Below, one piece after another: positions 5,959 through 14,454 of a DNA stretch of 64,000 nucleotides. Source of the stretch: Desulfovibrio sp. (GTDB taxonomy: Bacteria; Desulfobacterota; Desulfovibrionia; Desulfovibrionales; Desulfovibrionaceae); NCBI GenBank assembly GCA_016218665.1, contig JACRDI010000019.1, positions 1 to 64,000 on the forward strand, given 5' to 3'. Both the position numbers and the translations under genes were made by a program. The notes below the pieces were generated by a model. The model was not told where the DNA came from and searched no databases. It was given only the letters and a program-made list of their open reading frames with translations. Position 1 is the stretch's first letter; each line of letters starts with the position of its first letter.

Positions 5959-7635
5959 CTACTTGCCGAAGCAGCACTTGGGGTACACGCAGGTCTTGCA
6001 GTTGAGGCAGAAGCCGCCCTCGGCCATTTTCGCCAGGTCGGCGCGCTTCAGCTCCACCCCGGCCAGCACGCGCGGCAGCAGGATGTCGAAGCTGGTGGCC
6101 TTGTGGAACAGCGCGCAGGCCGGCACGCCCATGACCTGAGCGCTGCCTGCCGGGCAGGCCAGGCGGCCCAGGAGCGTCATGGCCCCGGGCAAGAGCGGCG
6201 CGCCGTAGAGCATGTCCGTCAGGCCCGCAGTCAGCAGGCCCTTGCGGGTCACGTCGTCGGGGTCGACGGAAAGGCCGGCCGTGGTGACGATGAGTTCCGC
6301 CCCGGCGGCAAGCAGCTTGGCCACGCTCCGGGCGATGCGCTCGGCGTCGTCGGGCACGATGTCCACGGCCACCACGCTGGAGCCCAGGCGCTCCACCTTG
6401 TCGCGCACCACGGGGGCGAACTTGTCCTCGATGAGGCCCTGGAAGACCTCCGTGCCGGTGACCAGCACGCCCACGCGCATGGGCTTCACCGGGGCGATGG
6501 AGAAGAGCGGCCCGGCGGAGAGCACGGCCTGCGCCTTGCGGAAGTTCTCGGCCGAGAGGTAGAGCGGAATGGCCCTGGCCCCGGCCAGCTCCTTGCCGGC
6601 CTCCACCAGCACGCCGTCGTGGCGGCTGGCGGCCATGACGTCGGGCACCATGTTGAAGGCCTCCAGGCGCTCGCGCTCAAGCAGGAGCACGCCGGTGGCG
6701 GTGGACCGGAAGTTGATCTTGCCCTCGTGGGGCGTCTCGTCGAAGGTGATGTTCTCGCCCGCCATGAGTCTGGCGAAGGCCAGCGCGGCCTCGTTCTCGT
6801 GGATGAAGCCGTCGGGGGTCTCCTGCTCCAGGTACACGTGGGCCCGGCCCATGGCCTGCAGGCGGCACACGTCGCCGCCGGAGATGGCGTGCCCCTTGTG
6901 GAACTCCACGCCCTTGCTCTCTCCGGCCACGATGCGCGTCATGTCGTGCAGGGTCTTGTGCCCCACGGCCTCGCTCACGGGAACGGCGGTGAGGCGCGGC
7001 CCGGCGTCCATTTGGGCCTGGGCATGGGGCGCGGTCTCGCAGCCGGCCCCCGCGGGCATGTGGCAGCCGGGCTGGCCGTAGGGGGCCTCGCCCTGGCAGC
7101 CCCGGCAGATGGCGCCGTCGCTGGGCGGGTAGGCCTCGGCGCAGATGGGGCACACGCCCACCCGGCCCATGTTCTTGTGCTTGCGGAACAGGTCGTCCAC
7201 CTGCACCGGGGCCATGGAGCACAGGTTTTCCCCGGCTTCTTCGATCTCGCGGAACAGCCTGTCCGTGTCCTGGTCGGCTTTTTTCTTGAGCTTCAGAAAC
7301 CAGCCGCGTATTTCATCGTATGGAGTCAGCTTTTCCACGTCGAGCCAGACGCGCACGCCCGTGCCGGTGTATTTGTCGTACAGGGCCAGGGCGTAGCGGC
7401 CCAGGTTCAGCACCTTCATCCAGCCGTTGCCCAGGGTGCAGGGGGTCAGAATCTGCACCGCGTCGGGCAGGCATTTGGAGGTCTCCACCACGGCGTCGAA
7501 AAGCGTGCCCTCCGGCAGCTGGCGGCGGGCCAGCTCCACCATGTAGCCGCCGAGCAAGAGGCCCGGAGCCGGGTAGCCGTGGAAGGCCGCGGCCTTGTCC
7601 TTGAATTCCTGGAAGGTGTAGGGGCCGATGTTCAT
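5959..7635 (-). CDS. FmdE-domain / molybdopterin-binding (MoCF) fusion protein
   Basis: This 558-residue cytoplasmic protein probably helps make or handle molybdenum cofactor. Residues 1-130 are an FmdE-type domain (FHGYPAPGLLLGGY, then TPCTLGNGWMKVLNLG). Residues 162-180 form a CxxC...CxxC zinc or iron ribbon (Cys162, 165, 177, 180). Residues 340-500 are a MoaB/MoeA-like molybdopterin-binding domain (VGVLVTGTEVF; VTTAGLSVDPDDVT). The tail is a cysteine cluster (CLNCKTC...KCC). ATG at 7635 is chosen because residues upstream in frame are unlike the family and because an 8-bp palindrome lies at 7662-7687. It is divergent from the molybdoenzyme operon at 7854, which suggests cofactor supply or insertion for that enzyme. 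Confidence 0.85.
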   Translation of the reverse strand: MNIGPYTFQEFKDKAAAFHGYPAPGLLLGGYMVELARRQLPEGTLFDAVVETSKCLPDAVQILTPCTLGNGWMKVLNLGRYALALYDKYTGTGVRVWLDVEKLTPYDEIRGWFLKLKKKADQDTDRLFREIEEAGENLCSMAPVQVDDLFRKHKNMGRVGVCPICAEAYPPSDGAICRGCQGEAPYGQPGCHMPAGAGCETAPHAQAQMDAGPRLTAVPVSEAVGHKTLHDMTRIVAGESKGVEFHKGHAISGGDVCRLQAMGRAHVYLEQETPDGFIHENEAALAFARLMAGENITFDETPHEGKINFRSTATGVLLLERERLEAFNMVPDVMAASRHDGVLVEAGKELAGARAIPLYLSAENFRKAQAVLSAGPLFSIAPVKPMRVGVLVTGTEVFQGLIEDKFAPVVRDKVERLGSSVVAVDIVPDDAERIARSVAKLLAAGAELIVTTAGLSVDPDDVTRKGLLTAGLTDMLYGAPLLPGAMTLLGRLACPAGSAQVMGVPACALFHKATSFDILLPRVLAGVELKRADLAKMAEGGFCLNCKTCVYPKCCFGK

Positions 7636-7661
7636 GCGTGTTTCCGCCTTGGGTTTCGTGT

Positions 7662-7747: not shown

Positions 7748-7776
7748 TTGACGTATATACCCCATACGGGTAGAGG
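7748..7776 (+). promoter_or_regulatory. candidate promoter of the sulfur-redox operon
   Basis: TTGACG (7748-7753) could be a -35 box. TAGAGG (7771-7776) at 17 bases is a weak -10. TATATA at 7754-7759 could be a -10 of another start. Either way the CstR-like operator at 7757-7772 lies within the promoter. Confidence 0.35.
7757..7772. promoter_or_regulatory. CsoR/CstR-type operator upstream of the cytochrome c-molybdoenzyme operon
   Basis: ATACCCCATACGGGTA is a near-palindrome of the G/C-tract type bound by CsoR-family repressors. For CstR I recall sites close to ATACCC-N-ACGGGTAT. A second copy identical in 14 of 16 bases lies at 13377-13392, in front of the CsoR-family gene of this window. 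Its placement within the promoter region fits repression. Confidence 0.7.
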
Positions 7777-7853
7777 GAACATGAAGCAGAGGAGATGAGC
7801 GGCCAGGCCAAAGCCTGCCGTGACGTATCGCCAACACCCAGGAGGAACCGACC

Positions 7854-8171
7854 ATGAAGCGCAGCACCAGCATCTTCGCCGCCATAGTCCTGGCCATCGC
7901 CACCGTGGGCATGGCCTTCGCCGCCGAGGGCAACGCCCGCAAGGGCAAGTACCTGTACCGCCAGAAGTGCCGCTCCTGCCACGGGGTGAGCGCCTCGGAC
8001 CTTTCGCCCAACTCCAAGACCCAGGCCGAGTGGAAGAAGCTCTTCGCCAAGCCCGAGGCCATCAAGTGCTACAAGGACTGGAAGGGCGTCACCCCGGAGG
8101 AGAAGACCGACATCTTCACCTACCTGCACGATTTCGCCAAGGACTCCCCCTCTCCGGCCAAGTGCAACTAA
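7854..8171 (+). CDS. small periplasmic mono-heme cytochrome c without a Met ligand
   Basis: This 105-residue protein has a signal peptide (cut near AFAAEG, residues 22-26) and one heme-binding CRSCH (Cys39, Cys42, His43). The mature part contains no methionine at all, so the sixth heme ligand cannot be the usual Met. His92, Cys72 (in IKCYKDW) or a lysine are candidates. A further Cys104 is next to the C-terminus. It probably carries electrons to or from the molybdoenzyme encoded 61 bases downstream. An AGGAGG-like site precedes ATG 7854. It is the first gene of the operon behind the CstR-type operator. Confidence 0.88.
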   Translation: MKRSTSIFAAIVLAIATVGMAFAAEGNARKGKYLYRQKCRSCHGVSASDLSPNSKTQAEWKKLFAKPEAIKCYKDWKGVTPEEKTDIFTYLHDFAKDSPSPAKCN

Positions 8172-8232
8172 AAGCGCAAAGCCCGGCGGGAGCGGCTCCC
8201 TCGCCCTCCCGCCGGCCACGACGGAGTCACCC

Positions 8233-10425
8233 ATGACAAGCCATATTTCCCGACGCGACTTCCTGCGCCTGGCTGGCGCGGCGGCCGGCGCGGCCGCGGC
8301 GACGGCGGCCAATGCCGCCCTTGCCCCGCAGGCCCGGGCCGCTGCTCCGGCGCAGGCACCGCAGTGGGAGTCGAAGTTCGGCGTGTGCGACATGTGCTTC
8401 AACCGCTGCGGGCTCATCGCCCGGGTGGAGAAGGGCGTCATCAGGAAGCTCGACCCCAACCCCAAATTCACCAAGTCGCGCGGGATGCTCTGCGCGCGGG
8501 GCAACGCCGGTGTGGACCAGGTGTACGATCCCGAGCGCCTGAAGACCCCGCTTCTGCGCACGGGCAAGCGCGGCGAGGGCAGGTGGAAGGAAGTGGGCTG
8601 GGACGAGGCCCTGGAAATTTGCGCCGGCAGGATGAAGGACATCGCCGCGAAGTACACCCGCTGCGGCATGCTCTTCAGCGCCGGGGCCGACACCCAGAGC
8701 CAGTTCGTGAACCGCTTCGCCGAGGCCTTCGGCTCCTACAACGTCACCAGCCACGAGTCCCTGTGCCTGCTCTCCGGCAACCGGGCCTTTGTGGACACCT
8801 TCGGCGAGGTGCCCCTGCCGGACGTGAAAAACAGCAAGTACGTCATCCTGGCCGGGGCCAACCGTCTGGAGGCCCTCGTCACGCCGGACAGCATGGACCT
8901 GGTGTCCATAATGAAGGACGGAGCCAAGGTGGTGGTGCTGGACCCGCGCTACACCAAGAGCGCGGCCCTGGCGAGCGAGTGGCACGCCATCCACCCCGGC
9001 ACTGACCTGGCCTTCATGCTGGCGCTGGCGCACGTCATCATCGCCGAGAAGCTCTACGACGCGAAGTTCGTGGCCGAGCGCACCAGCGGCCTGGACAAGC
9101 TCTCCGCCCACGTGGCGGACAAGACGCCCCAGTGGGCGGAAGGGGAGACCGGCATCCCCGCGGCGGACATCGCCAGGATCGCACGGGAACTTGCCGCAGC
9201 GGCCCCTGCGGCCATGGTCTACCCCGGCCGCCGCAGCTCCGACTACGAGAACAGCACCCAGATCCGGCGCGGCTTCGCCATCGTCAACGCCCTGCTGGGC
9301 AACTGGGACCGCCCCGGCGGACTTGTGCCGCCGCGCCCGGCCGGGGTGAAGAAGGTGCCCTTCGAGCCGCCGTTCTACGACGACAACCCTCCGGGCCGCG
9401 TGGACGCCAAGGGCGTGCCCCTGCTCTTCGACGACGAGGGGTCCTTCGTGCTCACGCGCGATGCCGTCATCAAGGGCGCTCCGTATCCGGTGAAGGGCTG
9501 GTTCGTGTACAAGACCAACCCCATGGCCACCGCGCCGGAGCGCAGGAAGACCCGTGAGATGATCGAAGCCCTGGACTTCCTGGTGGTGGCCGACATCGCC
9601 ATGAGCGACACGGCCTGGATGGCCGACCTGGTGCTGCCCATGCCCAGCGCCCTGGAGCGCCAGGACCCGGTGCAGGCCCTGCAGGCCGGGGCCGAGGGAG
9701 CGTGCCTTGTCTGGCGCGACCCGGTCATTGCCCCGCTGCACCAGTCCCGGCCGGTGTTCGAGGTGCTGAAGGCGCTCTCGGGAAAGCTCGGCTTCCCCGA
9801 GGCCTTCGACTTCGACATCGCCACGTACCGCGAAAAGCAGCTGGCCGCCTTTCCGGAGGCGGCGGAGATTCTGAAGCGTGACGGCGTGTTCTATCCCCCG
9901 AACCCGCCCCTGGGAACCACGGACGGACAGCCCTTCAAGACCCCCAGCCAGAAGATCGAGCTGTACAGCAACCGCTACGCGGACATGGGGCTGGACCCCC
10001 TGCCCGTGTACCAGACGCCCAAGCCCAGCCCGGACGCGGGCCGCAGGTTCCGCCTGGTGGCCGGGCGCAGCGCCTGCGTCACCCAGGCCAGCAGCACCAA
10101 CAACGCGCTCCTGTCCGAGTTCGAGCCGGAAAACACGCTTTGGCTGAACGAGGACAGCGCAAAGGAGCTGGGCGTGCGGCAGGGCGACCTGGTGCAGGTG
10201 GAAAGCCCGGCGGGCAGGGGGGAGCTCAAGGCCCTGGTGACGCCGAAGATCCGCAAGGACACGGTGTACATGCTCTCCGGCTTCGGCACCATCTCCGGCC
10301 AGCTCAAGCGCTCCAGGGTGGGCGCGAGCATCGTGGAACTCATGGAAAGCCGCCACGACGCCATCTGCGGCAACTCGGCCATCCATGAGACCTTCGTCAG
10401 CGTGAAGAAGAAGGGGGCCGCATGA
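8233..10425 (+). CDS. molybdopterin oxidoreductase catalytic subunit, thiosulfate/polysulfide reductase type (PhsA/PsrA-like)
   Basis: This 730-residue exported molybdoenzyme opens with a Tat signal, SRRDFLRLAG. Residues 52-87 bind one [4Fe-4S] cluster (Cys52, 55, 59, 87; C-2x-C-3x-C-27x-C). A cysteine in SHESLC (Cys178) stands where this family ligates molybdenum. The C-terminal third has the molydopterin-binding fold (RFRLVAGRSACVTQASSTNN region). Length and a downstream ferredoxin-type subunit plus b-type cytochrome match PhsABC/PsrABC. Thiosulfate, polysulfide or tetrathionate are likely substrates. The rhodanese gene in the operon favours sulfur over arsenate or formate. It overlaps the next gene by four bases (ATGA). 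Confidence 0.85.
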   Translation: MTSHISRRDFLRLAGAAAGAAAATAANAALAPQARAAAPAQAPQWESKFGVCDMCFNRCGLIARVEKGVIRKLDPNPKFTKSRGMLCARGNAGVDQVYDPERLKTPLLRTGKRGEGRWKEVGWDEALEICAGRMKDIAAKYTRCGMLFSAGADTQSQFVNRFAEAFGSYNVTSHESLCLLSGNRAFVDTFGEVPLPDVKNSKYVILAGANRLEALVTPDSMDLVSIMKDGAKVVVLDPRYTKSAALASEWHAIHPGTDLAFMLALAHVIIAEKLYDAKFVAERTSGLDKLSAHVADKTPQWAEGETGIPAADIARIARELAAAAPAAMVYPGRRSSDYENSTQIRRGFAIVNALLGNWDRPGGLVPPRPAGVKKVPFEPPFYDDNPPGRVDAKGVPLLFDDEGSFVLTRDAVIKGAPYPVKGWFVYKTNPMATAPERRKTREMIEALDFLVVADIAMSDTAWMADLVLPMPSALERQDPVQALQAGAEGACLVWRDPVIAPLHQSRPVFEVLKALSGKLGFPEAFDFDIATYREKQLAAFPEAAEILKRDGVFYPPNPPLGTTDGQPFKTPSQKIELYSNRYADMGLDPLPVYQTPKPSPDAGRRFRLVAGRSACVTQASSTNNALLSEFEPENTLWLNEDSAKELGVRQGDLVQVESPAGRGELKALVTPKIRKDTVYMLSGFGTISGQLKRSRVGASIVELMESRHDAICGNSAIHETFVSVKKKGAA

Positions 10426-11249
10426 ACCGGAAGCTCGCCATGGTCATAGATTCGGCCAAGTGCATCGACTGCAAGGCCTGCGTGGCCGCGTGCAAGCAGG
10501 CCAACGGCGTTGCGCGCGGGCAGCGGCGCAACTGGATCAAGGAGGCCGTTCCGCCCCTTGAGAACGGCCCGGACGGCAACAGGAAGCTGGGCCGGGGCCA
10601 CTTCCAGCCCGGGGCCTGCATGCACTGCGACGAGCCCAGCTGCGTGGCCGCCTGCCCCACGGGCGCAACCTTCAAGAACGCGGCCGACGGCACGGTGGTC
10701 ATCGACCCCCGGCTGTGCATCGGCTGCGGCAACTGCATTCCCAGCTGCCCCTACGGCGCGCGCTTCCGCGACACGCAAAGGCGTATCGCCGACAAGTGCG
10801 ACTACTGCCCGGAGCGCCGGGCCGCGGGCCTCTCCCCGGCCTGCGTGGACACCTGCCCCACCAAGGCGCGCGTCTTCGGCGACATCAACGATCCCGACAG
10901 CGAGGCCGCCAAGCTGCTTGCCGCCAACCAGGGCCGGGTGGTGCGCGTCATCGCGAAGCAGAACGACACAAAGCCCAACATGTACTACATCGCCAGCACC
11001 GCACCGGACGGCTGGGCGGTGCAGCCCGTGAACCCGCTCTCCTTCGACGCCCTGACCCAGGTGGTGGCCCCGCTGGTGAAGTACGCCGTGGGCCTTTCCG
11101 GCCTGGGCGTGCTGGCCATGCTTGCCCGCCAGCTCGTAACCTCCGGAACGGCGGGGAAGGACGGCGGCAGCCACGGGGCAGGGCAAGCCCCGGTCCCGCC
11201 GGAAACCGGCTCCGGAACAGGAAAGGAGGACGGCCATGACGCCCGCTAA
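10422..11249 (+). CDS. 4x[4Fe-4S] electron-transfer subunit (PhsB/PsrB/FdnH-like)
   Basis: This is a 275-residue iron-sulfur subunit. Four cysteine groups are visible: Cys14-17-20-24, Cys67-70-74-78, Cys99-102-105-109 and Cys126-129-141-145, the ferredoxin pattern of the DMSO-reductase-family B subunits. A hydrophobic segment around residues 212-235 can anchor it in the membrane as in FdnH, followed by a Gly/Pro-rich tail. It would pass electrons between the cytochrome b and the catalytic subunit. It has no export signal and should travel with the Tat-exported partner. It overlaps both neighbours. Confidence 0.9.
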   Translation: MNRKLAMVIDSAKCIDCKACVAACKQANGVARGQRRNWIKEAVPPLENGPDGNRKLGRGHFQPGACMHCDEPSCVAACPTGATFKNAADGTVVIDPRLCIGCGNCIPSCPYGARFRDTQRRIADKCDYCPERRAAGLSPACVDTCPTKARVFGDINDPDSEAAKLLAANQGRVVRVIAKQNDTKPNMYYIASTAPDGWAVQPVNPLSFDALTQVVAPLVKYAVGLSGLGVLAMLARQLVTSGTAGKDGGSHGAGQAPVPPETGSGTGKEDGHDAR

Positions 11250-11970
11250 CGGCGAGATCAAGCGCCACGACCCCTCGGACATCCGCATCCACTGGTTCAA
11301 CGCGGCCTGCTGGCTGGTGCTGCTCGTCAGCGGCCTCGGGCTCATCAAGAACGAAAAGCTGAACCCGCTGGGGGCCTGGCTGCCCGACGCCCTGCGCGCC
11401 CTTTTCGGGGGCGGCAGCGCGGGCGGGGCGGTGCTGCTGGTCATCCACGAGGTTGTCGGCGTGGCCTGGCTGCTGGGCATGCTGGCCTACCTGGGCGTGA
11501 ACGCGGGCGGCGCGCGGTTCTTCCTGCGCGAGATATTCAGCATCCGCCCCGGCGACCTGGCCTGGCTGGTGCGCAAGATGCTGCGCATGACCGTGGGCCC
11601 GAAGTTCGGCGGCGGCGGCGGCGAGCTGCCGCCCCAGGGCTACTACAACATGGGCCAGAAGGCCTTTGCCCAGGCCTCGGTGCTGGGCGGAATAGTCATC
11701 GGCGTCACGGGCATGGTCCTGCTGGCCTCGGACAAGTTCCTGCCCGCGTCCATGGCCGGGCTCGTAGGCTGGGCCGTGACCCTGCACTACCTGGCCGTGG
11801 GCCTTGTGTTCGCGGGCCTGCTCGTGCACGTGTACATGGCGGCCGTCTCGCCGGAGGAAAAGCCCGGCTTCCGCTCCATGTTCACCGGCACGGTGCCGCG
11901 CGACTACGCCCGGCACCACCACGGCCTCTGGCTGGACGCCCTGGAAAAGGGTACCGGCGGCGAGAAGTAG
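11236..11970 (+). CDS. cytochrome b membrane anchor (PhsC / formate dehydrogenase gamma-like)
   Basis: This 244-residue protein has about four membrane helices. Likely heme ligands are His19 in RIHWFNA at the first helix, a His in VIHEVVG in the second, and two His in the last helix (LHYLAVG...VHVYM). This matches the di-heme b cytochromes of the FdnI/PhsC family. It should connect the membrane quinone pool to the iron-sulfur subunit. Its start lies 14 bases inside the preceding gene, so the subunits are translationally coupled. Quinol-oxidising or quinone-reducing direction cannot be decided from sequence. Confidence 0.87.
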   Translation: MTPANGEIKRHDPSDIRIHWFNAACWLVLLVSGLGLIKNEKLNPLGAWLPDALRALFGGGSAGGAVLLVIHEVVGVAWLLGMLAYLGVNAGGARFFLREIFSIRPGDLAWLVRKMLRMTVGPKFGGGGGELPPQGYYNMGQKAFAQASVLGGIVIGVTGMVLLASDKFLPASMAGLVGWAVTLHYLAVGLVFAGLLVHVYMAAVSPEEKPGFRSMFTGTVPRDYARHHHGLWLDALEKGTGGEK

Positions 11971-12051
11971 GCCGCACTGAATGGATTGGACGGGCGGGGA
12001 CGTGCCCTGGCCCGAACGTGTTGCTCACCATCGAAGCACAAGGAGAACACC

Positions 12052-13158
12052 ATGCGTACCAAGCGATTCGCGCAGGCCTTCCTGCTGGTCCTTCTGGCCC
12101 TGGCCTTCGCGGTCCAGGCCCAGGCGGCCAACCCGGACTACTTCTACAAGAACCTGGTGGACATCAACTACGTGAAGCCCCTGGTGAAGGTGCCCAACCC
12201 CGAGGGCGTGAAGCTCATCGACTCGCGCCCGTACCAGGCCAAGTACGTGCAAGGCTACATTCCCACGGCCATCAGCCTGCCGGACGGCGATTTCGAGAAG
12301 AAGGCCGCCGAGCTTCTGCCCAAGGACAAGAACACCACCCTCGTCTTCTACTGCGAGGGCCCGGAGTGCCGCCTTTCCCACAACTCCGCCCGCAAGGCCG
12401 AGAAGCTGGGCTACAAGAACGTGAAGGTGTTCCCCGGCGGCTACCCGGAGTGGGTGCAGGCGGGCAACTATCCGGCCATCGGCGTGGAGCAGGTGAAGGA
12501 TCTGCTGACCAAGGGCGAGAGCTTCCTGCTGGTGGATTCCCGCCCGCTGGTGAAGTTCCTTGAGGGCAGCATCCCCGGCGCGGTGAGCATCCCCGACTCC
12601 GCCTTCGACAAGAAGCAGGGCCTGCTGCCCGCGGACAAGAACTCCCTGCTGGTGTTCTTCTGCGGCGGGTACGAGTGCCCCCTGAGCCACGCCAGCGCCA
12701 GGAAGGCCATGGCCCTGGGCTACAAGAACGTGAAGGTCTGCGAGGCCGGCGAGCCCGCCTGGGTCAAGATGTATGGCGCGACCAACGCTGGGGGCGGCGG
12801 CCTGAAGGTGCAGACCGGCGGCGTGGAAGGCGCCATCAACGTGGAGCAGTTCAAGAAGATCCTGGCCGAGAAGCCGGACAGCATCCTGCTCATCGACGTG
12901 CGCGACCCGGACGAGTTCGCCGCGGGCCATTCCCCCAGCGCGGTCAACATCCCCGTGAACGAGCTGGAGAAGAAGCTGCCCTCCATGAAGCTCGACAAGC
13001 CCGTGGTTTTCGTCTGCGCCACGGGTTCGCGCAGCGGCGAGGCCTATTACATGACCCGCGACCTGCGCAAGGACGTGAAGGACGTGTACTACCTGGAGGC
13101 CACCACCAAGTGGTCCAAGGACGGCACCTGCTCCATCACCGAGAACAAGAAGAAGTAG
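12052..13158 (+). CDS. exported triple-domain rhodanese (sulfurtransferase)
   Basis: This 368-residue protein has a signal peptide (cut near AQAANPD, about residue 26) and three rhodanese folds. Domains 1 and 2 have an unusual two-cysteine loop: CEGPECRLS (Cys101, Cys106) and CGGYECPLS (Cys204, Cys209). Domain 3 has the ordinary loop CATGSRSG (Cys322). Each first Cys could carry a persulfide. The second Cys in domains 1 and 2 could form a disulfide with it or pass sulfur on. AGGAG precedes ATG 12052, 81 bases after the cytochrome b gene. It probably handles sulfane sulfur in the periplasm, delivering to or taking from the reductase. Confidence 0.88.
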   Translation: MRTKRFAQAFLLVLLALAFAVQAQAANPDYFYKNLVDINYVKPLVKVPNPEGVKLIDSRPYQAKYVQGYIPTAISLPDGDFEKKAAELLPKDKNTTLVFYCEGPECRLSHNSARKAEKLGYKNVKVFPGGYPEWVQAGNYPAIGVEQVKDLLTKGESFLLVDSRPLVKFLEGSIPGAVSIPDSAFDKKQGLLPADKNSLLVFFCGGYECPLSHASARKAMALGYKNVKVCEAGEPAWVKMYGATNAGGGGLKVQTGGVEGAINVEQFKKILAEKPDSILLIDVRDPDEFAAGHSPSAVNIPVNELEKKLPSMKLDKPVVFVCATGSRSGEAYYMTRDLRKDVKDVYYLEATTKWSKDGTCSITENKKK

Positions 13159-13166
13159 CCTGCCTG

Positions 13167-13207
13167 GGCGGCGGGCCGGGAGGCATACCCCCCCTCGGCC
13201 CGCCGCC
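13167..13207 (+). terminator. strong hairpin after the rhodanese gene
   Basis: GGCGGCGGGCC (13167-13177) and GGCCCGCCGCC (13197-13207) pair perfectly, with more pairing inside. It starts nine bases after the stop and closes the operon. The following bases (GCATGTCCTTT) are only partly T-rich. Confidence 0.6.
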
Positions 13208-13236
13208 GCATGTCCTTTCAGCCCCCGAAGCGATAT

Positions 13237-13257
13237 TTCCGATTGAAATTATCGGAA
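13237..13257. promoter_or_regulatory. inverted repeat TTCCGAT-N7-ATCGGAA
   Basis: The seven-base arms are perfect (13237-13243 and 13251-13257). The repeat lies in the 307-base gap between the rhodanese gene and the CsoR-family gene, whose other contents are the operon hairpin and the CstR-type operator. It looks like a binding site for another regulator. No partner is evident. Confidence 0.35.
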
Positions 13258-13376
13258 TCCTGGCGTAGCAGATTGGGCCGAAGCGAGTCGAAGAAGCCCC
13301 AGGCTTGAGGAGTTCCCCTTGCCAAGCTCGGAATTCAATGACATGCCGGAATCTGCCCGGACGCCGCGCACCCCGG

Positions 13377-13392
13377 ATACCCCATGCGGGCA
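13377..13392. promoter_or_regulatory. second CsoR/CstR-type operator, in front of the regulator gene
   Basis: ATACCCCATGCGGGCA matches the site at 7757-7772 in 14 of 16 bases and lies 73 bases upstream of the regulator ATG. This is the expected arrangement for an autoregulated repressor that also controls the sulfur operon. Confidence 0.65.
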
Positions 13393-13465
13393 AGGGGCGT
13401 GCTGCGCAGTCCGGCGCGCAACGCGGTCCGGCGACGCGAAAGCCAAGGCTTTTCAGGAGGCGGAC

Positions 13466-13753
13466 ATGCCCAAGGAAGTGAAGGATCAGGAAGCCCTCAA
13501 AAAAGACGTCATGGCCCGCATGAAGCGCATCGAGGGCCAGGTGCGCGGCATCCAGCGCATGATTGAAGAGGGCAAGGAATGCGAGGACATCCTGGTGCAG
13601 GTGCGGGCGGTGCGCTCGGCCCTGCGCTCGGCCACCACGCAGATCATGCGCCGCTACCTGCTGCGCTGCAACGAGCAGGCCGTGCAGAGCGGCGATGTGG
13701 CCGGCCAGTACGAGAAGCTCATGAAGCTCGTCTCGGACTTCATCGACGGCTAG
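13466..13753 (+). CDS. cstR: CsoR-family repressor, CstR-like persulfide sensor
   Basis: This 95-residue all-helical repressor belongs to the CsoR/RcnR/FrmR family (MARMKRIEGQVRGIQRMIEE). Two cysteines, Cys39 and Cys68, are 29 residues apart, the spacing of the two ligand cysteines in CsoR and the two reactive cysteines in CstR. The copper-binding His of CsoR, four residues before the second Cys, is Tyr64 here. This argues against copper sensing and for per/polysulfide sensing through a Cys-Cys link. AGGAGG (13455-13460) fixes the start at 13466. A longer start upstream would run through the operator. Operators at 13377 and 7757 suggest autoregulation and control of the Phs-like operon. Its stop overlaps the stop of the converging TetR gene. 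Confidence 0.85.
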   Translation: MPKEVKDQEALKKDVMARMKRIEGQVRGIQRMIEEGKECEDILVQVRAVRSALRSATTQIMRRYLLRCNEQAVQSGDVAGQYEKLMKLVSDFIDG

Positions 13754-14454
13754 GCCGGCCCCTCCGCAATTCCCACCGAAGCCCCGCGCGAGCCGGACTC
13801 CCGCTGCATGGCCTCCGGCTCCGGAGGCATGTTTTTCAGCGCGCTCAAGGAAAACGCGGTGATGTGTCTGGCCAGGGCCAGAATGCCCGCCTCGTCGAAA
13901 CGCACCTGCGGGGCCAGCCGGCCGATGACCGCCCGCGAGCGGAACACGTACTGGCATTGGCCCACCACGCTCATGGCGCAGGCCAGGGTGCGGGCGTCGC
14001 CCGCCTTGGCCCTGTTGCCCAGCGCCTCCGCCACGATGCCGCGCAGTTCCTCCGCCAGGGGGACGATGTAGCGCTCCACCACATGGTCCAGGGCCTCTGT
14101 GGGCTCGTGCAGTTCCCTGGCCATGAGCTTGCCGCACCAGGCGGTGCGCCCGCTGCCCAGCATGCGCAGCAAAAAGGAGTGCACGTAGGCGAAGAGCCGC
14201 TCCCCGCAGCCGGCGCCGGGGGCCAGGTTCATGGTGGTGGGATAGCGCCGCAGGCCGCTCTCGAAGGCCTCGGCCAGCAGGGCCTTGTACAGCCCGGCCT
14301 TGTCGCCGAAGTGGTAATGCACGGCCGCCACATTGGCCTTGGCGCTGCGGCAGATCTCGCGTACCGTTGCGGCCTTGAAGCCTTTTTCCGAGAAGATCTC
14401 GCCCGCGGCCTCCAAGAGTCTTTTCTTGGTGTCGCCCTGTTCGGCCTGCAGCAT
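13750..14454 (-). CDS. TetR-family repressor (CecR/DUF1956 type)
   Basis: This 234-residue DNA-binding regulator has an N-terminal helix-turn-helix: KRLLEAAGEIFSEKGF, then VREICRSAKANVAAVHYHFG, the standard TetR pattern. The C-terminal domain (MARELHEPTEALDHVVERYI) resembles the CecR/YbiH ligand domain. GGAGG precedes ATG 14454. It is divergent from an MFS drug exporter, with a TTGAC-TTA-GTCAA palindrome between them, so it most likely represses the exporter until it binds a ligand. Confidence 0.9.
   Translation of the reverse strand: MLQAEQGDTKKRLLEAAGEIFSEKGFKAATVREICRSAKANVAAVHYHFGDKAGLYKALLAEAFESGLRRYPTTMNLAPGAGCGERLFAYVHSFLLRMLGSGRTAWCGKLMARELHEPTEALDHVVERYIVPLAEELRGIVAEALGNRAKAGDARTLACAMSVVGQCQYVFRSRAVIGRLAPQVRFDEAGILALARHITAFSLSALKNMPPEPEAMQRESGSRGASVGIAEGPA

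Follow-up and report, generated by a model that had tools for sequence, protein, structure and literature searches.

To our knowledge, what makes sulfate reducers commit to the reduction of thiosulfate, polysulfide or sulfur is poorly understood. This question is raised by a locus of a Desulfovibrio species that lies within a 64,000-nucleotide stretch of DNA, analyzed as a whole and referred to here as the window (GenBank contig JACRDI010000019.1, positions 1 to 64,000). At this locus an operon encoding a c-type cytochrome, a PhsABC-like molybdoenzyme and a rhodanese is followed by csoR, the gene of a 95-residue CsoR-family regulator. The original prediction had joined the regulator, two operator-like sites and the sulfur operon into a single candidate regulon. 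Comparison with related genomes supported this proposal: the operon site was found in 11 genera, csoR-less relatives at the order level lacked it, and it occupies a fixed place in the promoter. We conclude that the 95-residue protein is probably a CstR-like repressor of an operon for thiosulfate or polysulfide respiration.

The evidence starts with the palindrome TACCC-N5-GGGTA, which stands before the operon as ATACCCCATACGGGTA (7757–7772, forward strand) and to which binding is predicted. The 300 bp before the cytochrome gene were scanned in 53 rows, which came to 51 distinct loci because one genome was present twice and one row was unreadable; the scan took in the phsA-bearing genomes G003 and G218 and left out G098 and G268. 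Within these 300 bp the palindrome was perfect at 44 loci, had one mismatch at 6 and was missing at 1. The scan of relatives that the original prediction had proposed thus found the site at 0–1 mismatch in 50 of 51 distinct readable Desulfovibrionaceae loci. On the same regions, 19 control motifs with permuted arms (988 tests) gave no perfect and 7 one-mismatch matches, and control windows inside phsA yielded 1 perfect match among 157. The only operon without the site belongs to G218 (67% complete), where no csoR match was found. A search of 14 further genomes of the genus detected the regulator in 12 and the operon in 8. Each of these 8 operons is preceded by the palindrome, which is perfect in 7 of them and carries a single mismatch in G001. 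These results make the link between operator and operon a strong one. At several loci of genus g5 (L264, L267, L278 and others), a partial operator-like CCCATAC(C/T)GGGT followed by GGTTATAAT also lies about 15–30 nt after the first operator.

The position of the palindrome is conserved as well. When 50 loci were aligned on the operator, an exact TTGACA started 10 nt before TACCC in 40 and TTGAC in 44, and among the offsets examined over 100 nt TTGAC occurred elsewhere only twice; the six loci without TTGAC at this register are L041, L246, L247, L248, L256 and L284. A 17-nt spacer separates this hexamer from a -10-like hexamer, most commonly TATATG, TATACG or TATATT, which agrees with TATAAT at 4 or 5 of 6 bases in 36 of the 50 loci. 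The operator therefore takes up the whole 17-bp spacer between the hexamers of a sigma-70-like promoter, and since it lies between the -35 and -10 elements, a bound repressor would block RNA polymerase. In the window, the register of the relatives assigns the -35 hexamer to TTGACG (7748–7753, forward strand) and the presumed -10 hexamer to TAGAGG (7771–7776, forward strand). Scanning the window's two upstream regions for a consensus promoter returned nothing at the threshold used; the promoter becomes visible through the alignment of relatives.

The second operator-like site, ATACCCCATGCGGGCA, precedes csoR at 13377–13392. Both 16-base sites were found where the original prediction had placed them, with 14 of 16 bases identical, and both point in the same direction as the operon and csoR. 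It had noted no other full copy, and the window indeed holds none at up to 3 mismatches to the combined pattern. Counting near-copies of the 16-mer was rejected as a line of evidence, being uninformative both in the window, where 35 of 100 shuffles produced two or more matches within 3 mismatches, and in the genome to which the window belongs, where the combined pattern matched 3 times versus 9 for a backward control. The perfect palindrome was likewise no more frequent than its backward control in 15 genomes of the genus (24 versus 30 places), and its placement was unusual: 8 of the 24 lay before phs and 6 before yeeE. The operator signal lies in conservation and position, not in copy number. 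The prediction that relatives would keep the pair of sites held for the operon member and only in part for the other, which was present at 0–1 mismatch, 73–91 nt upstream of the gene, in 7 of 14 csoR loci of the genus when C or T was allowed at the fourth base of the second arm.

Regulator and reductase also travel together. Across 247 genomes of the family, the regulator was found in 70 (strong matches, with E no higher than about 1e-26), phsA (E at most 1e-180) in 56 and both in 52 (Fisher p = 6e-33, uncorrected for relatedness). In 49 of the genomes with both genes, representing 11 genera, csoR lies on one contig within 10 kb of phsA, and in 3 the two are on separate contigs. The phsA-bearing genomes without a csoR match are G003, G098, G218 and G268 (58–87% complete). 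G005 (L035 and L038), G131 and G164 each have two strong-match copies of the regulator, of which one is linked to the operon and the other is not.

The motif TACCC-N5-GGGYA was absent from 18 kb around each of seven orthologous operons at the order level (genomes G047, G054, G043, G038, G035, G048 and G051; loci L088–L094), and these genomes have no csoR match. In G051, Pfam identifies the product of the gene divergent from the operon as a PAS-sigma54 activator, and a similar-looking protein was seen by eye at 5 of the other 6 loci. It is possible, judging from these neighborhoods, that a PAS-sigma54 activator has taken the place of csoR beside the phs operon of the order-level relatives. Several of the PAS-sigma54-like proteins carry a C-x4-C-x2-C stretch in the PAS part.

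What the regulator may sense is suggested by its residues. The gene (13466–13753, forward strand) encodes 95 residues with Cys39, Tyr64 and Cys68, as had been claimed. The protein belongs to the CsoR/RcnR family (DUF156; Pfam PF02583 Trns_repr_metal, E = 4e-25, 88.3 bits versus a cut-off of 22.8) and is the only CsoR-family match in its own genome, which is 84% complete. Three marks of CstR were found. The spacing of 29 between Cys39 and Cys68 equals that of CstR Cys31 and Cys60; the metal-ligand position holds no His (Tyr64 here, Asn in SpCstR); and a pseudo-palindromic operator with C/G runs, the rule for CsoR-family proteins (PMC10318464), stands before sulfur genes at 50 of 51 loci as a predicted binding site. 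The Cys-His-Cys set of copper CsoR proteins is absent, as Tyr64 replaces the His. An alignment of 18 sequences from five genera, among them the window's, shows no variation at Cys39, Tyr64 or Cys68, and in the tree's rows from the family the three positions read Cys-Tyr-Cys in 70 (one from a duplicate genome), Cys-Ala-Cys in 1 and Cys-His-Cys in 23. The non-His proteins of the family group in a single clade, although its support is weak (0.52). The six outside relatives nearest to them, among the matches listed, are other Cys-Tyr-Cys proteins, assigned by record title to Clostridia, Chloroflexi and Thermotogae; the outside sample consisted of the best 80 matches and is biased toward similar proteins.

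Two Cys residues without a His could also form a disulfide with many oxidants, and the same operator could control the same operon in response to general thiol oxidation or another electrophile, such as oxygen, nitroxyl, disulfide stress or formaldehyde. S. aureus CstR reacts with nitroxyl too (PMC5480029), and a thioredoxin-like gene was seen by eye beside 3 of 8 Cys-Tyr-Cys genes from other phyla. The window protein moreover has Pro2 together with the first conserved Cys, as does the formaldehyde sensor FrmR (PMC5016687); the NCBIfam FrmR model scored 42.5 bits on it versus a cut-off of 133. However, of the 15 aligned rows in which residue 2 is present, only that of the window has Pro2, and the predicted targets are sulfur genes: a sulfur reductase, a rhodanese and YeeE/YedE. 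We regard this alternative as unlikely, though it is the best of those weighed here. Sulfane sulfur is the predicted effector, on the strength of the sensor residues, the predicted targets and the resemblance to CstR.

An ordinary sensor of copper or another metal, controlling the sulfur operon because metal and sulfide chemistry are linked, is favored by the fold and operator type that the regulator has in common with copper CsoR and by its being the only CsoR-family match in the genome. The comparison within the family makes such a sensor highly improbable. A P-type ATPase gene adjoins 19 of 23 Cys-His-Cys genes versus 1 of 71 non-His loci, and every one of the 71 non-His rows has Tyr or Ala in place of the metal-ligand His. 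The 23 Cys-His-Cys genes are weaker, divergent matches, examined out of 46 genomes having only such matches, and none of the 23 surrounding stretches contained a phsA match. The single ATPase case among the 71 speaks for a metal sensor: at L328 (G204), about 0.9 kb separates an orphan Cys-Tyr-Cys csoR (6902–7174) from the gene of a copper-type P-type ATPase. A gene for a small metal-binding domain also lies near this csoR, with no phs nearby. That the non-His sensor position separates this regulator from the ATPase-linked CsoRs of the family is supported by these data.

Several observations weigh against a CstR-like repressor of the operon. The regulator occurs without a phsA match, at the cut-off used, in 18 of the 247 family genomes. 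The comparison covered 14 csoR stretches away from phs: one each from 11 of these 18 genomes, two that hold second copies, and L333, the severed end of a split phs locus. A perfect site was found only in L326; because of this, the regulator probably has other jobs in the orphan loci. Only half of the genus's csoR loci retain the site at the csoR promoter, and outside the genus it is poorly conserved, where 10 of 50 csoR rows are within 0–1 mismatch of the strict palindrome. G003 (87% complete) has the operon site, on a contig that ends inside phsB, and no csoR was found there. The -10 hexamer of the window is weak, with 3 of 6 bases. Among the sensor proteins, G097 has Ala instead of Tyr, and SpCstR is no nearer in the tree than copper CsoR (SpCstR 2.61, GtCsoR 2.65). 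The divide from the ATPase-linked proteins is not clean: besides the L328 case, the Cys-His-Cys locus L337 has a rhodanese match nearby, and perfect palindromes occur in 10 of the 23 Cys-His-Cys loci, so that the operator type does not reveal the effector. TTHA1953, discussed below and the closest precedent met in the literature consulted for CsoR-like control of dissimilatory sulfur genes, did not respond to NaHS (PMC10318464).

A third possibility, that csoR is linked by an accident of gene order and the palindrome serves another regulator or is a promoter element, draws on the csoR genes without phsA and on the G003 site, and has very little probability in view of the same type of site at 10 of 23 Cys-His-Cys csoR loci and of its absence from the operons of the seven csoR-less order-level genomes and of G218. 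Repression of the operon by the 95-residue protein would account best for the conserved site.

As a side observation, the one orphan stretch with perfect sites, L326 (G149), has two perfect palindromes a short distance apart (6420–6465) about 750 bp before csoR and no phs operon in the stretch examined.

All operon genes lie on the forward strand. The first (7854–8171; Pfam Cytochrome_CBB3, E = 3e-7) encodes a c-type cytochrome in which one CXXCH motif and a signal peptide were recognized by eye, and its product is apparently exported. The second (8233–10425) encodes the molybdopterin catalytic subunit of PhsA/PsrA type. Its best NCBIfam match is thiosulfate reductase PhsA, at 527.7 bits versus a curated cut-off of 694, and we call it PhsA-like because it stays under that cut-off. 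Its closest solved chain by sequence is 2vpw, the Thermus thiosulfate/polysulfide reductase (E = 1e-114), and its Tat signal scored 19.5 bits, slightly below the model cut-off. A PhsB-like iron-sulfur subunit (10422–11249; Fer4_11, E = 4e-26) and a PhsC-like membrane subunit of the cytochrome b561/FdhI type (11236–11970; Ni_hydr_CYTB, E = 2e-21) follow, the latter having formate dehydrogenase gamma as its nearest NCBIfam model, under the cut-off. PhsC is a b-type anchor and PsrC an NrfD-type one; the three-subunit layout with a b-type cytochrome anchor in the C subunit is that of PhsABC thiosulfate reductase. Thiosulfate, polysulfide and sulfur are all possible substrates. The last gene (12052–13158) encodes a triple rhodanese (Pfam Rhodanese in 3 stretches, E = 1e-47), apparently exported, with a signal peptide recognized by eye. 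Between it and csoR, many other genera have a gene for a TorD-like chaperone and one more rhodanese. In G030 (contig 13, 33917–36088) a single in-frame TAA interrupts the phsA match, which may reflect a broken gene or an assembly error.

Upstream of the operon, on the reverse strand, lies a gene (5959–7638) whose product fuses an FmdE domain (E = 2e-37) with a molybdopterin-binding MoCF_biosynth domain (E = 2e-20) and a zinc finger; it adjoins the molybdoenzyme operon. A gene of this type is divergent from the operon in some members of the genus and has no match beside the operon in others, and it also stands beside csoR in members without phs (L028, L029, L030 and L036). Possibly the 7757 region serves it as a second gene, although this is not established. 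Downstream, a TetR/CecR-type gene (13750–14454) is convergent with csoR. The two are immediate neighbors in the window, L029, L030, L035 and L036, and are separated by an RND efflux pump and a membrane-fusion gene in several members of the genus (L026, L028, L031 and L037).

In the genome to which the window belongs, the perfect palindrome occurs at only two places. One is before the phs operon; the other, outside the window on contig 34 (21689–21703), precedes a YeeE/YedE pair (Pfam Sulphur transport, E = 7e-23) by 27 nt. Our comparison of YeeE genes covered 30 of 67 family matches, 12 of the 30 from the genus. A site at 0–1 mismatch was found 23–28 nt upstream of 10 of these 12, and among its carriers are G008 and G010, both without a match to the phs operon. 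The YeeE/YedE sulfur-transport pair is thus a predicted further target of the regulon in the genus. Extension of this control to other genera was not supported, with sites at 0–1 mismatch in 0 of 18 loci, 4 of them in genomes with the regulator. In G028 (L042 and L082), which has the regulator and no phs operon match, perfect palindromes precede a multihaem cytochrome gene and the gene of an unidentified membrane protein, both possible other targets. A rhodanese gene elsewhere is preceded by an exact TACCC-N5-GGGCA in G009 and G013 and by weaker sites in G002 and G000, and was not counted as a target.

The YeeE-type genes showed a separate feature. At the conserved Cys134 (context ADG-C-PSGHG, or AGG-C in G030), five of them have an in-frame TGA (L102, L103, L104, L308 and L314, from G003, G009, G014, G175 and G030), past which the reading continues alike, and the other 9 of 14 loci, that of the window's genome included, have TGC. 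A similar small hairpin lies about 15–37 nt after the TGA in the four distinct TGA sequences, with an energy not clearly better than that of shuffles. This TGA is a candidate selenocysteine codon.

In the mechanism that we propose, the reduced repressor would bind TACCC-N5-GGGTA in the promoter spacer and keep RNA polymerase off the cytochrome c-PhsABC-rhodanese operon; in Humidesulfovibrio it would also block the YeeE/YedE pair and, in part, its own gene. A rise in sulfane sulfur, whether as polysulfide, as persulfide or as sulfur liberated from thiosulfate, would be the inducing signal. Cys39 and Cys68 of neighboring protomers would then be bridged by di- to tetrasulfide links and the repressor would leave the DNA. 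The operon would be transcribed, and the respiratory reductase and rhodanese made from it would use up the inducer. On balance we lean slightly toward a wider proposal, in which the Cys-Tyr-Cys branch of CsoR would be the Desulfovibrionaceae switch for sulfur and thiosulfate respiration, a cytoplasmic sensor acting at the promoter of a periplasmic reductase, with the PAS-sigma54 activator replacing it in other families of sulfate reducers.

If these proposals are true, sulfane sulfur would be a substrate signal for respiration, beyond its role as a stress signal; the enzyme would be made only when its sulfur substrate is present; and persulfide sensing by the CsoR family would extend from detoxification and oxidation to reductive respiration. 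For the choice of sulfur substrate by sulfate reducers, the analysis offers a specific repressor, a promoter element and a testable prediction. Tyr versus His provides a sequence signature that separates sulfur-linked from ATPase-linked CsoR proteins in Desulfovibrionaceae.

Regulators of related function help to place this one. A deep-sea sulfate reducer was reported to raise PhsA with thiosulfate and other sulfur sources (PMC10989961), which is compatible with the proposed mechanism if that PhsA is assumed to be orthologous to the window's. ThsSR of Shewanella halifaxensis controls a phsA promoter, but is a two-component activator that senses thiosulfate and belongs to an unrelated protein family (PMC5408782). 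BigR/SqrR and FisR of Acinetobacter baumannii sense persulfide, and BigR controls a yeeE-yedE-pdo2 operon (PMC7315123); unlike the window regulator, BigR/SqrR is of the ArsR family and FisR is a sigma54 activator. The PAS-sigma54 activator that neighbors the phs operon in relatives lacking csoR brings FisR to mind, as a candidate likeness.

Within the CsoR fold, the copper sensors have the same operator type and differ in their Cys-His-Cys site and their P-type ATPase neighbors (19 of 23 in the family). TTHA1953 of Thermus thermophilus is also a CsoR-like repressor of dissimilatory sulfur genes, but it controls sulfur oxidation (Sox), recognizes a motif without long C/G tracts and is encoded far from its targets (PMC10318464). 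The closest likeness is to CstR of S. aureus, E. faecalis and S. pneumoniae and to YrkD of Bacillus licheniformis, which combine the CsoR fold with two Cys residues (31 and 60 in S. aureus, 29 apart like those of the window regulator) and count rhodanese-type genes among their targets (PMC5480029, PMC9405070, PMC9918477). CstR forms di-, tri- and tetrasulfides between Cys31 and Cys60 (PMC9774590), and Cys31 and Cys62 of E. faecalis CstR are persulfidated (PMC9405070). Like SpCstR, the window regulator lacks the metal-ligand His at the aligned position; unlike SpCstR, which has Asn there, it has Tyr. In the open literature consulted, with most subscription papers outside its scope, no link of a CsoR/CstR protein to a phs or psr operon was found; what looks like a mention of CsoR in PMC10989961 is the name of an author. 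As far as these sources go, the known CstR regulons serve sulfide oxidation and sulfurtransfer (sqr, cstA, cstB, tauE, coaP, rhodaneses and pdo), whereas the main predicted target here is a membrane-bound respiratory thiosulfate/polysulfide reductase with its cytochrome c.

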